This document shows positions 13,394 to 18,222 of a stretch of 64,000 bases of DNA, piece after piece; positions within the stretch are counted from its first letter, which is position 1; every line of letters begins with the position of its first letter. Location of the stretch: contig QCQA01000002.1 in NCBI GenBank assembly GCA_003212335.1, forward strand, positions 124,001 through 188,000, read 5' to 3'. Under the pieces are notes generated by a model. The model ran no database searches. It was not told the DNA's origin and saw nothing but the letters and a program-made list of their open reading frames with translations. Both the position numbers and the translations under genes were made by a program. Origin of the DNA: SAR86 cluster bacterium AG-447-A08. Its GTDB lineage: Bacteria; Pseudomonadota; Gammaproteobacteria; Magnimaribacterales; Magnimaribacteraceae.

Positions 13394-14077
13394 ATGTCCA
13401 AAAGAATTCTGATAGTCGAGGATGAATTAGATTTAAGATCTACTTTAGAGTTTAAGTTTAAATCAGAAGGCTATACCGTAGAGTCTGTTTCTAAAGGCAA
13501 AGATGCTCTTGCTGCTTTATCTAGAAAAAAGCCTGATTTAATACTATTAGATCTCATGCTGCCCGATATGTCTGGTTTAGATATATGCAAAAAAGTTAGA
13601 AATAGTCCTGATGACCATGATATATCCATAATTATGTTAACCGCTAAAGGGGAAGAGGTTGATAGGGTGTTGGGTTTTGAGTTAGGTGCTGACGATTATG
13701 TTGTAAAGCCCTTTAGCGTTAGAGAGCTTGCATTAAGAGTATCAACTGTACTAAAAAGAAAAGAAAAACAAGAAGAGACAACTAAAATCTCTTTAGGTGA
13801 CATAGAAATTAATCTCTCTACTTATCGAGTTTTTATAAGCAGTACAGAAATTCAACTAACTGCTAAGGAGTTTCTTTTATTTAAGCATTTAGTGCAAAAG
13901 AATGGTCGTATACAACCTAGAGAAGTGTTACTCGAAGAGGTGTGGGGCTACAATTCTTCAGTTACCACAAGAACAGTAGATACTCATGTTAAAAGATTGC
14001 GAAGCAAAATAGGCGACATCGGTACAAAAATAGAAACTGTTCGTGGAGTAGGGTATAGATTCAATTATGTTGTCTAA
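13394..14077 (+). CDS. phoB: Phosphate regulon response regulator PhoB
   Basis: A 227-residue OmpR/PhoB-type regulator. The receiver domain (1-115) has the acidic pocket VEDE, phosphorylated Asp53 in LLDLMLPD, Thr83 and Lys105 in VVKPF. The C-terminal winged helix (about 130-227) has the recognition region TRTVDTHVKRLRSKI and ends GVGYRF. The next gene encodes its kinase and overlaps it by 11 bases. The following porin, DUF47 and Pit genes make phosphate limitation the likely signal, and the site upstream suggests autoregulation. It lacks a Shine-Dalgarno site. Confidence 0.93.
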   Translation: MSKRILIVEDELDLRSTLEFKFKSEGYTVESVSKGKDALAALSRKKPDLILLDLMLPDMSGLDICKKVRNSPDDHDISIIMLTAKGEEVDRVLGFELGADDYVVKPFSVRELALRVSTVLKRKEKQEETTKISLGDIEINLSTYRVFISSTEIQLTAKEFLLFKHLVQKNGRIQPREVLLEEVWGYNSSVTTRTVDTHVKRLRSKIGDIGTKIETVRGVGYRFNYVV

Positions 14078-15155
14078 AGTTTTACGTCTCTTTACAAAAG
14101 ATAAACAAATAAAATCTACAGAAGTTGTTGAAAGTACAGCTTTAACTGCAAAAGAGCTGCCACAAATATTAGATAAGACAGGAATCGGTCTAATTGTCTT
14201 GGATTCAAATGACTGTATTACTCAAATTAATTCAGTCGCTTCTTTGGATTTAAATATTCCTAAAAACTATGAAGGTAGTAAATTGGTTGAGGTTTTTAAT
14301 AACAGCGAGATCATTAATTTAATAAAAAGCGCGAAACTTGATACATCCACAGAAGAAGAAATCTTTGGCGTAGAGCCAGGTAATAAAAGTTTCTTAGTAA
14401 ATGCCACCTTTGACAGTGATTCATCAGAAACAACACTTGTCTTCATTGATATTACCCGTATCAAGAAATTAGAGAATATTAGAAAAGATTTTATTGCTAA
14501 TTTATCTCACGAATTAAGAACTCCCGTAGCCGTTATAAGGGCAAATTCAGAATCTCTAGTTGATGGAGCTTTAGATGATAAAGAGATTGCCCAAAAGTTC
14601 TCCAATGCAATATTAAAAAACTCAGAAAAACTATCATATCTTTTAGAAGATATCCTGAATCTATCAACTATAGAATCAGGTGAATACAATCTTGAGCTTG
14701 CTGAGAATGGCGTTTCAGATATTTTTAAAAATTCAATTAACTCTGTCATATCAAATAATCCTGATCTAAAGATTATTAATAATATCTCATCAGATGTAGA
14801 GGTAATTTGTGACGTTAAGGCATTATCTCAAGTTATTGATAATCTTATAGAAAATTCAGTTAAATATGGAATTTCTAAAGAATGCAATGAGATCATTATT
14901 AATATGAAAGACCAAGGCTCTAAAGTAAGATTTGAAATTGAAGATCACGGACAAGGCATACCCGCAGATCAAAGAGAAAGAGTATTTGAGAGATTCTTTA
15001 GAATTCAAAATAACAATACTTCTTTAAAGGAGGGAACCGGATTAGGTCTATCTATAGTCAAGAATTTAGTAAATCTTATGGGTGGTTCTGTAGGTAACGA
15101 AAAAGCCTATCCTAGGGGTACAATTTTCTGGTTCACCCTGAACAAAAAAAACTAA
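14067..15155 (+). CDS. phoR: Phosphate regulon sensor kinase PhoR, soluble form
   Basis: This 362-residue kinase has a PAS-like domain (about 33-130), a dimerisation helix with phosphorylated His148 in NLSHELRTPV, and an ATPase domain with NLIENSVKYG (N box), DHGQGIP (G1), FERFFR (F box) and GTGLGLSIV (G2). Escherichia coli PhoR has two N-terminal membrane helices; here residues 1-35 are hydrophilic and no membrane segment is present. No upstream extension can supply one, because phoB occupies that sequence in another frame. Kinase location and coupling to phosphate status must therefore differ, possibly through the DUF47 protein. Confidence 0.9.
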   Translation: MLSKVLRLFTKDKQIKSTEVVESTALTAKELPQILDKTGIGLIVLDSNDCITQINSVASLDLNIPKNYEGSKLVEVFNNSEIINLIKSAKLDTSTEEEIFGVEPGNKSFLVNATFDSDSSETTLVFIDITRIKKLENIRKDFIANLSHELRTPVAVIRANSESLVDGALDDKEIAQKFSNAILKNSEKLSYLLEDILNLSTIESGEYNLELAENGVSDIFKNSINSVISNNPDLKIINNISSDVEVICDVKALSQVIDNLIENSVKYGISKECNEIIINMKDQGSKVRFEIEDHGQGIPADQRERVFERFFRIQNNNTSLKEGTGLGLSIVKNLVNLMGGSVGNEKAYPRGTIFWFTLNKKN

Positions 15156-15221: not shown

Positions 15222-16148
15222 ATGAAATTTAAAGTACTTACGTTATTTGCATTTTTAATGGGTTTCAATCTTCAATCTGAACAACCTACAGTTTATGGGA
15301 AACTATGGATATCTATTGAATCTCAAAATACAGCTTCTGGTACCGAAGTGGATATGGTAAGCAATGCTTCTAGATTAGGTATAAAAGGAAGTATGGATTT
15401 TGGAGAAGGTATAGAAGCTATTTATCAAGCTGAATACGAAGTTGATCCGGTAGATGGAACTGCAGACGAATCAAAAGATAGAACTTTCAAACAAAGAAAT
15501 AGTTTTGTGGGTTTAAAAGGATCTATGGGAACTATTTTCCTTGGTAAGCACGACACAGCAACAAAAAGATCACAAAAGAAAATAGATCTTTTTAATGACC
15601 TTGCGGGTGATATTAAGAATATATTGCAAGGAGAGAACAGGATGAGCGACCTGGTAGGATACACAACTCCAAAGATTAACGGCTTTTCTGCAACTTTTAA
15701 TGCAATAAAAGGCACAGAAGGGCTCGGTGATGACAGCATAGGTGACTCAACTTCAACTTCTTTGAGTTACGACTCAGAAAACATTTATATTGCCTTGGCC
15801 TTTGATTCTGAACTTAAAGGCTATGACTCAACAAGATTAACACTTCAAATTCCATTCAGCCGCAGTCAATTAGGAATTATGTTTCAAGAAAGTGAAAAAT
15901 TATCTACAGGAAAAGAAGAAGACGGTTATGTTATTAGTTTTTCCCAAAAGGTAGGTAATAAGGGAACACTTAAATTTCAACAGACAGAATCGGATATGAA
16001 ATTAGATTCAGGAAAGCAATTTTCTTTCGGCTATGACTATAAATTAAGTAGTAAAGCCAAAGTTTTTTACTTCTTCACAGACTTAAATGGAAATCAAGAT
16101 TCTAAAGAAAAAGAAATACATGGAGCAGGGTTTGAATATAAGTTTTAA
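15222..16148 (+). CDS. Gram-negative outer-membrane porin
   Basis: The 308-residue protein has an N-terminal signal sequence (about 1-19, MKFKVLTLFAFLMGF core) and then alternating beta-strand sequence starting TVYGKLWISIES, typical of general trimeric porins. SNASRLGIKGSMDFGEGIEAIYQ and RNSFVGLKG are characteristic porin strands, and the last residues, GAGFEYKF, end in the phenylalanine used for outer-membrane assembly. It lies 66 bases after phoR, with a Pho-box-like site in the gap, and before the phosphate transporter genes. A phosphate-induced porin, analogous in role to PhoE or OprP, is the natural reading, although its selectivity cannot be seen. Confidence 0.85.
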   Translation: MKFKVLTLFAFLMGFNLQSEQPTVYGKLWISIESQNTASGTEVDMVSNASRLGIKGSMDFGEGIEAIYQAEYEVDPVDGTADESKDRTFKQRNSFVGLKGSMGTIFLGKHDTATKRSQKKIDLFNDLAGDIKNILQGENRMSDLVGYTTPKINGFSATFNAIKGTEGLGDDSIGDSTSTSLSYDSENIYIALAFDSELKGYDSTRLTLQIPFSRSQLGIMFQESEKLSTGKEEDGYVISFSQKVGNKGTLKFQQTESDMKLDSGKQFSFGYDYKLSSKAKVFYFFTDLNGNQDSKEKEIHGAGFEYKF

Positions 16149-16182: not shown

Positions 16183-16200
16183 TTTGTAACAAATTTGACA
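16183..16200 (-). promoter_or_regulatory. Pho-box-like site before the DUF47/pit operon
   Basis: Read on the minus strand it is TGTCAAATTTGTTACAAA, close to the phoB copy with one extra base. A weak -10 (TAAGAAT, 16204-16210) follows. It suggests PhoB control of the phosphate uptake genes. Confidence 0.45.
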
Positions 16201-16225
16201 CAATAAGAATTCAAAATGTCTCACA

Positions 16226-16273
16226 ATGAATATTCTTAAAAAATTTAAACCGATCTCTGGAGACCATTTATGA
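16226..16273 (+). CDS. Possible short upstream ORF (leader peptide) of the DUF47 gene
   Basis: An ATG at 16226 opens a 15-codon frame, MNILKKFKPISGDHL, whose TGA overlaps the ATG of the DUF47 gene as ATGA. The layout is that of a translationally coupled leader. It has no clear ribosome site and the peptide matches nothing I know, so it may be chance in a short untranslated region. Confidence 0.25.
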   Translation: MNILKKFKPISGDHL

Positions 16274-16947
16274 AATCTACTGGCTACAACGACATTATTA
16301 GAAAGTCACCTTTCGGCCCAATAAAGGCACATATGCAAGTTTCCACAAACTCTGTTGATGAGTTGCTTAGATTCATTGAATTTGTCGTAGCTTCAGATTG
16401 GAGTGGGGCAACTCAATCCAGGAAATTAATAGCTGATCTGGAAAATCAAGCAGATGAATTAAAGGCTGAAACTAGAAGTTTGTTGCCTAAAAGTATCTTT
16501 TTTGCTGTTCCAAGGGAAGATATATTGGATCTAATAAAATTAGCTGATGATATTCCTAATACTGTAAAAGATATTTCTGGTCTGATGATAGGCAGAAATA
16601 TGGAAATTCCCTCAGCCATACATCAATCATTTCAAAATTTCATTCTAGAGGCTAAAGAGATAACTTACGCAGCAGCTGAAGCTGTTGATCATATAGATGA
16701 ATTATTTCAATTTTCTTTTGGCGGAAAGGCTGCAGAGAAAATGGAGACTTTGATAGAAAAGCTGGATTCTTTAGAAAATAGTAATGATCAAACTGAAATT
16801 ACCCTAAGAGGGGAACTTTTTAAAATAGAAAAAGATCTGCCACCTGTAGATGTTATGTTTTTGTATGACGTAATAAATAAAATTGGAGAATTATCTGACA
16901 GGGCGGAACAGGTTGGACACAGAATCTCTTTAATCGCATCTAGATAG
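16270..16947 (+). CDS. DUF47 family PhoU-like protein (Pit accessory)
   Basis: This 225-residue helical protein matches the DUF47 / TIGR00153 group, distant relatives of PhoU, usually encoded just before a Pit transporter as here (nine bases). The opening IRKSPFGPIKAHM is characteristic, and acidic helices such as ENQADELKAETR correspond to the metal-binding helix repeats of PhoU. DUF47 proteins are thought to regulate the partner Pit transporter. Because no pstSCAB-phoU cluster is visible, this protein is a candidate link between phosphate uptake and the soluble PhoR. That link is inference. Confidence 0.87.
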   Translation: MKSTGYNDIIRKSPFGPIKAHMQVSTNSVDELLRFIEFVVASDWSGATQSRKLIADLENQADELKAETRSLLPKSIFFAVPREDILDLIKLADDIPNTVKDISGLMIGRNMEIPSAIHQSFQNFILEAKEITYAAAEAVDHIDELFQFSFGGKAAEKMETLIEKLDSLENSNDQTEITLRGELFKIEKDLPPVDVMFLYDVINKIGELSDRAEQVGHRISLIASR

Positions 16948-16956
16948 GAAATTAAT

Positions 16957-18222
16957 ATGGAAACAATTATCTTATACGGACCTTACTTACTTATTTCAGG
17001 CTGTGTTTTTGGTTTTTTTATGGCCTGGGGAATAGGTGCTAATGACGTAGCAAATGCTATGGGTACTTCTGTCGGTGCTAGAGCTCTTACTTTAGCGCAA
17101 GCTATTCTAGTTGCTTGTATTTTTGAATTTGCTGGTGCTTATTTAGCTGGCGGTGAAGTTACCTCTACTATTCGAAAAGGAATCATAGATCCTAACCTTC
17201 TTCAAGAAACACCAGATTTATTGGTATTCGGTATGTTGGCAGCATTACTGGCTGCAGGTACTTGGTTGCTAATTGCTTCATCTAGAGGATGGCCCGTTTC
17301 CACAACACACTCTATAGTTGGAGCTATTGTTGGATTTGCAGCCGTTGGTATCAGTGTTGATGCTGTTAGTTGGTCCAAAGTCGGATCTATTGTATCTAGC
17401 TGGGTAGTTTCTCCATTAATGTCAGGGACTATAGCTTTCATAATCTTCCTCTCAGTACAAAAATTAATTCTGAACACAAATAAGCCATTTGAAAATGCTA
17501 AGAAATATGTACCCGGTTATATGTTCTTAGTGGGCTTTGTTATTGCAATGGTGACTTTGTTGAAAGGTTTAAAGCATATAGGTCTGTCCTTAACCTTTGG
17601 CGAAAGCTTAACCTATTCAATTGTTATCGGTTTTGTCATAGCTATGATCGGTACTTTCTTTTTAAGAAAAATTGAAAATACTACTCAACAACGTGGCGAT
17701 GTGACGTTTGATGGCGTAGAAAAAGTTTTTGCAGTGTTAATGGTATTTACAGCTTGTGCTATGGCATTTGCTCATGGATCTAATGATGTTGCTAATGCAG
17801 TGGGACCTCTGGCCGCCATAGCTAGTGTTATTCAGTCGGGTGGCGAGATAGCCTCAAAATCATCGATGCCATGGTGGATTTTGCTTCTTGGTGCTACAGG
17901 TATTGTCGCTGGACTAGCAACTTTGGGTTACAAGGTTATCGAAACGGTTGGAAGGAACATAACTGAATTAACTCCAAGTAGAGGTTTTGCCGCTGAACTT
18001 GCTGCTGCAACAACTGTTGTTTTAGCTTCCGGAACGGGCCTACCTATTTCAACAACTCATACACTTGTTGGTGCTGTGCTGGGAGTAGGTCTAGCTAGAG
18101 GCTTATCCGCTGTAGATTTTTCTGTTGTAGGTCGAATCATTGTTTCTTGGGTTGTGACATTACCTGTTGGTGCTGGCCTTTCAATCTTATTCTTCTTTAC
18201 ACTTAAGGGAATATTTCTTTAG
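16957..18222 (+). CDS. pit: Inorganic phosphate transporter, PiT family
   Basis: A 421-residue polytopic membrane protein with the two inverted PiT signatures: GANDVANAMGTSVGARAL near residues 27-44 and HGSNDVANAVGPLAAI in the second half, each followed by a PVSTTH / PISTTH motif. PiT proteins import phosphate, usually as a metal-phosphate complex, with protons or sodium. It is co-transcribed with the DUF47 gene. PiT systems are often low-affinity and constitutive, so placement next to PhoBR and Pho-box-like sites is noteworthy. The sequence after the stop holds only a weak inverted repeat (TAGAT/ATCTA), not a terminator. Confidence 0.93.
   Translation: METIILYGPYLLISGCVFGFFMAWGIGANDVANAMGTSVGARALTLAQAILVACIFEFAGAYLAGGEVTSTIRKGIIDPNLLQETPDLLVFGMLAALLAAGTWLLIASSRGWPVSTTHSIVGAIVGFAAVGISVDAVSWSKVGSIVSSWVVSPLMSGTIAFIIFLSVQKLILNTNKPFENAKKYVPGYMFLVGFVIAMVTLLKGLKHIGLSLTFGESLTYSIVIGFVIAMIGTFFLRKIENTTQQRGDVTFDGVEKVFAVLMVFTACAMAFAHGSNDVANAVGPLAAIASVIQSGGEIASKSSMPWWILLLGATGIVAGLATLGYKVIETVGRNITELTPSRGFAAELAAATTVVLASGTGLPISTTHTLVGAVLGVGLARGLSAVDFSVVGRIIVSWVVTLPVGAGLSILFFFTLKGIFL

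Follow-up and report, generated by a model that had tools for sequence, protein, structure and literature searches.

The window, by which we mean the whole 64,000-nucleotide stretch of SAR86 DNA that was analyzed, contains a cluster with the following genes and features:

13394..14077, + strand: phoB-type response regulator (receiver and winged helix; PF00072, PF00486)
14067..15155, + strand: phoR-type histidine kinase of 362 amino acids without a transmembrane segment (HisKA and HATPase_c; 11-base overlap with phoB)
14067..14099, + strand: N-terminal residues 1–11 of the kinase, a possible amphipathic helix (moment 0.78; holds the invariant F9 and K11; model confidence low)
14181..14450, + strand: predicted PAS-fold domain, about residues 39–128 of the kinase (AlphaFold2 model; Foldseek match 4i5s)
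14508..14510, + strand: codon of H148, the predicted phospho-acceptor (HELRTP, phosphatase motif HExxT; invariant in two alignments)
14811..15146, + strand: HATPase_c catalytic domain of the kinase (Pfam match)
15222..16148, + strand: porin (PF13609, 99 bits)
16184..16201, + strand: Pho-box-like direct repeat TTGTAACAAATTTGACAC upstream of DUF47 (12/14 to the consensus from other SAR86 families)
16270..16947, + strand: DUF47/PhoU_div (PitR-type) protein (PF01865, 133 bits; TIGR00153, 124.5 bits, cutoff 104.3)
16957..18222, + strand: Pit-family phosphate transporter (PF01384, 404 bits)

The DUF47 protein and the Pit transporter named in a preliminary description of this DNA were both recovered by profile matches (PF01865, TIGR00153, and PF01384), and the nearest solved structure of the DUF47 protein was 2iiu/2olt. 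Their genes are 9 bases apart, and this adjacency was kept in all DUF47 loci that we read. The porin between the kinase and DUF47, absent from the preliminary description, was kept at this position in the other soluble-kinase loci that were read past the kinase. The best NCBIfam match of the phoB-type regulator was PhoB TIGR02154 (244 bits, below the cutoff of 296).

Pfam placed HisKA at residues 139–205 and HATPase_c at residues 249–360 of the kinase. H148 and the N, G1, F, and G2 boxes were all intact in the sequence and in the orthologue alignment, in agreement with the complete core claimed earlier, and the core motifs of the soluble kinase were invariant across four genera. The AlphaFold2 model (mean pLDDT 85.8, built on 43 sequences) resolved into PAS, DHp, and CA domains behind a disordered N-terminus, and Foldseek aligned it along its length with the PAS-DHp-CA kinase 4i5s (TM score 0.75). 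The PAS domain of the preliminary description was therefore recovered as a predicted fold, whereas the Pfam search was silent on PAS. The kinase scored 205.4 bits against the curated PhoR profile TIGR02966, below its cutoff of 334.2, and two membrane PhoRs of the SAR86 order also missed this cutoff (247 and 235 bits). Among the traits of a canonical PhoR, the kinase has the core with its phosphatase motif, a PAS fold before the core (in the model), an adjacent phoB, and, as read from sequence, a Pho-box regulon; it lacks the N-terminal transmembrane segments and a TIGR02966 score above the cutoff.

The membrane prediction proposed in the preliminary description was run as a hydropathy scan and gave no transmembrane segment, as no 19-residue window of the kinase reached a Kyte-Doolittle value of 1.6 (maximum, 1.04). 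An in-frame stop lies five codons upstream of the kinase ATG, which itself overlaps the phoB stop, so that only five codons of extension are possible and no hidden segment can lie upstream, as had been argued. A segment missed through a wrong start was ruled out by this stop and by the same architecture in relatives. Residues 1–35, described as hydrophilic, indeed contain no hydrophobic segment but are not uniformly hydrophilic: residues 1–11 (MLSKVLRLFTK), modeled as a helix, have a hydrophobic moment of 0.78 (99th percentile within the protein), and the first 20 residues carry a net positive charge. F9, K11, and K13 were invariant in an alignment of ten orthologues, forming an F-x-K-x-K motif (14067–14105) in an N-terminal stretch of the soluble kinases that is disordered and, apart from this motif, variable. 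Peripheral membrane contact is possible in view of the amphipathic residues and these three invariant positions.

The search for pstSCAB-phoU that had been proposed was conducted on the window's own genome (1.54 Mb, 88% complete) and detected neither PhoU (PF01895) nor PstB over the cutoff, with only sub-cutoff cross-matches for PstB; the genome beyond the cluster thus yielded no Pst or PhoU at this completeness. Within the family, PhoU was found over the PF01895 cutoff in 0/35 genomes and PstB in 1/35 (G026), while DUF47 occurred in 17/35 and Pit in 25/35. Across the order, PhoU exceeded the cutoff in one of 203 genomes (G187, which carries porin-pstSCAB-phoU), PstB was found in 14/203, and PhoR-type kinases were present in at least 134. 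DUF47 over the cutoff was confined, among these 203 genomes, to the window's family, and families f2 and f3 carry pst clusters without PhoU or DUF47. The SAR86 lineage of the window is without PhoU and, in most members, without PstSCAB. Since PhoU absence is order-wide and includes genomes with membrane PhoR, it is not specific to the soluble kinase, and the loss of PhoU precedes the soluble kinase or is independent of it.

Eleven genomes, spread over four genera of a single SAR86 family, carry the soluble kinase. DUF47 was located at the same locus in all ten assessable genomes (in the eleventh, the contig stops at the kinase) and in none of the seven membrane-PhoR genomes of the family (Fisher p 5e-5, uncorrected for relatedness). 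In the phylogenetic tree, this family's soluble kinases formed one clade (support 100), and its membrane kinases grouped with family f2 (support 98). Because the soluble kinases form a single clade, their co-occurrence with DUF47 represents few independent events, and linkage by itself may account for it. A second soluble PhoR, from another SAR86 family (G150; L211:5636-6718), was nested among f3 membrane kinases (support 96), which indicates a separate loss of the membrane segment. Neither DUF47 nor PstB was detected in G150, a single incomplete genome (73% complete); its soluble PhoR is followed by genes matching type II secretion genes of a relative. Membrane PhoRs elsewhere in the order were about 590, 450, and 402 residues long in the loci read, compared with about 360 for the soluble forms. 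The 402-residue form (L217–L220), shorter than the 450-residue one, carries a membrane hairpin immediately ahead of its PAS domain and is possibly an intermediate in N-terminal loss. A class-wide search at a strict threshold returned no equally close kinase outside the order except one 646-residue frame.

We then compared the gene content of the locus among genomes of the family. Several cassettes alternate at a single syntenic position. The type A cassette, comprising phoB, soluble phoR, porin, DUF47, and pit, occupies it in the window and eight others. Type B comprises phoB, a 577-residue membrane phoR, Ppx/GppA, PPK2, a different pit, a TonB receptor, and phytase; it was seen in L071, L078, L080, L214, and L215, with the last two genes, which point to organic phosphate use, found where the locus was more complete. 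Type C contains porin, DUF47, and pit without phoBR, and DUF47-pit without phoBR was found at the locus in G016, G004, G011, G015, and G006. The locus of G009 has a 445-residue membrane kinase near the porin. The G026 cassette keeps the type A order with pstSCAB inserted before DUF47 (L070:2718-8120); its pst operon lies directly behind the Pho box, and its DUF47 and Pit proteins are 84 and 99% identical to those of the window. Owing to this insertion between the box and DUF47, the DUF47 gene follows pstB, in the slot usually held by phoU.

Sequence identities pointed to exchange of these cassettes. G014 and G029, which belong to different genera, were 93–99% identical from cytidylyltransferase through pit (phoB 97%, phoR 93%, pit 99%), with SRAP at 94% and the upstream GATase at 62%. 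Between G014 and its genus-mate G013, the upstream enoyl-CoA hydratase was 99% identical, whereas phoB, phoR, and pit were 33–64% identical (phoR 33%, pit 59%). These values indicate that, in at least one lineage, the type B cassette (phoB, membrane phoR, and pit) crossed between genera in one piece, and kinase type and transporter type therefore changed together. Such joint change fits functional coupling, but linkage alone could explain it.

To avoid circularity, the SAR86 Pho-box consensus (TTGTCAC-N4-TTGTCAC) was derived from family f2 promoters only; an earlier, broader consensus had been drawn up with type A sequences in view, and under it the repeat at 16184..16201 was the best match of the window. 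The box before DUF47 scored 11–13/14 in 9/9 soluble-kinase (type A) loci and 8–10/14 in 5/5 type C loci without phoBR (p 0.0013, uncorrected for relatedness), and 13 of 2000 random 130-base stretches of the window reached at least 11/14. The E. coli consensus (CTGTCAT twice) gave chance-level matches only in the window, and candidate boxes before phoB and the porin were weak (11/14 and 10/14; shuffle p 0.06 and 0.25). As judged by these scores, the DUF47-pit box is present in soluble-kinase genomes and weak or absent where phoBR is missing, which is a correlation.

We consider that the DUF47 protein, of PitR type, serves as the phosphate input to a soluble PhoR in a PhoU-less Pho system, with a rough probability of 0.52. 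The best reading is that the already known PitR-Pit-to-PhoR circuit occurs here in a new, soluble form. This reading starts from direct observations of gene content, PhoU and Pst absence, loss of the membrane segment, conservation of the gene set, cassette exchange, and the Pho-box correlation. We infer DUF47-kinase binding, the sign of the effect, and the kind of signal; an input through DUF47, probably acting on the PAS domain, is likely by analogy with S. aureus, in which PitR together with PitA represses PhoPR (PMC13170248), and with E. coli, in which PhoU acts via the PhoR PAS domain (PMC4423584). A two-hybrid study of S. aureus reported no PitR-PhoR or PitR-PitA contact, and its authors cautioned against weighing negative results (PMC11705898). 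In the proposed circuit, the kinase, having lost its membrane module, would work from the cytoplasm, and DUF47 would be made together with Pit from a PhoB-controlled promoter. DUF47 would most likely report the state of Pit or cytoplasmic phosphate to the PAS domain, holding the kinase in its phosphatase state at sufficient phosphate; under scarcity, the kinase would phosphorylate PhoB and thereby raise DUF47-pit.

The preliminary description had proposed a rewired path in which a soluble kinase reads the Pit/DUF47 pair or an internal ligand through its PAS domain, and this is partly supported. Synteny, cassette exchange, and the Pho box do tie the kinase to DUF47-Pit, but PhoU loss is order-wide, and pstSCAB is present in G026, a sister species that has the soluble kinase. 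Persistence of DUF47-pit without phoBR and the soluble PhoR of G150 without detected DUF47 also argue against a special wiring of soluble kinases to DUF47. A broader proposal, that SAR86 rebuilt Pho as a wholly cytoplasmic sensor in which soluble PhoR has DUF47 as its sole partner, serving mostly Pit but also Pst in G026 and replacing PhoU altogether, is tentative and somewhat doubtful.

The main rival is direct sensing: the PAS domain of the soluble kinase would itself detect a signal of phosphate sufficiency in the cytoplasm (phosphate, a nucleotide, or another metabolite), and DUF47 would regulate only Pit, as a target of the pathway rather than an input. The Pho box of DUF47 promoters is consistent with such a target, and the independent transmembrane loss in G150 is consistent with sensing that needs no DUF47. 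Moreover, PhoU was missing in 202/203 genomes of the order despite the frequency of PhoR-type kinases, so that PhoU-free sensing already existed; elsewhere, Salmonella PhoR answers a signal from inside the cell, and the B. subtilis PhoR functions with no PhoU (PMC10055408, PMC13170248). However, every assessable soluble kinase of the family travels with DUF47, and PitR is an established PhoPR repressor in S. aureus. We regard direct sensing as less likely than an input through DUF47. Less probable again is that the basic amphipathic N-terminal helix holds the kinase at the inner membrane face beside Pit/DUF47, so that it is not truly cytoplasmic and the change of topology is minor. The moment, the positive charge, and the invariant F9, K11, and K13 favor this placement, yet the strong amphipathic pattern occurs only in the window's genus, with just F-x-K-x-K left elsewhere, and model confidence at the N-terminus is below 50; such anchoring would be compatible with DUF47 as the kinase input. 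That the kinase is decaying or repurposed and no longer tied to phosphate, as its lost membrane module and low TIGR02966 score might suggest, is highly improbable given its invariant core, the Pho boxes kept where it is present, its place with DUF47 and Pit, and the equally sub-cutoff membrane PhoRs of the order.

Signaling from PitR to PhoPR has already been published. As far as we searched the open-licence literature, a PhoR without its membrane module, order-wide absence of PhoU, and DUF47 in the PhoU slot behind pst are undescribed. Phosphate sensing by PhoR is still debated between transporter flux at the membrane and a cytoplasmic signal, and a natural PhoR without a membrane part in abundant, PhoU-less ocean bacteria puts the cytoplasmic model directly to the test, together with the idea that DUF47 can stand in for PhoU. 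In mesocosm data, SAR86 was one of the leading contributors of pit and pst transcripts, and levels of both were higher at low phosphate (PMC12981677). Our results suggest that finding phoU or pst in a marine survey is a poor guide to phosphate sensing.

Finally, we compared the SAR86 system with known systems. The Frankia SenX3/PhoR-type kinases L169 and L177 likewise miss the hydrophobic N-terminus (L171 is cut at a contig end), but a PhoU-like gene lies divergently nearby, and the L169 kinase is far from the SAR86 kinases in the tree. A PhoR/SenX3-type kinase without a hydrophobic N-terminus was also seen in a member of Thermoleophilia (L166). In the planctomycete Mariniblastus sp. (L162), DUF47-pit adjoins pstSCAB and a membrane PhoR, which makes this a further case, separate from SAR86, of DUF47-Pit next to PhoR. 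B. subtilis PhoPR similarly works without any PhoU homologue, although its kinase is a membrane protein answering wall teichoic acid intermediates. The E. coli PhoR-PhoB/PstSCAB-PhoU system shares the phoB-phoR pair, the PAS-DHp-CA kinase, and a Pho box of 11-base period, whereas the window's genome lacks kinase transmembrane segments, PhoU, and Pst. S. aureus PitR-PitA/PhoPR resembles the SAR86 system in having a DUF47/PitR gene adjoining pit and a PhoR-type kinase; its PitR represses the kinase at sufficient phosphate, and repression by the SAR86 DUF47 protein would follow by analogy. The S. aureus PhoR is a membrane protein, its pitR-pitA lies apart from phoPR, and PhoU, Pst, and NptA are also kept; by comparison, the SAR86 genes all lie in one cluster, with a kinase that has no membrane segment.
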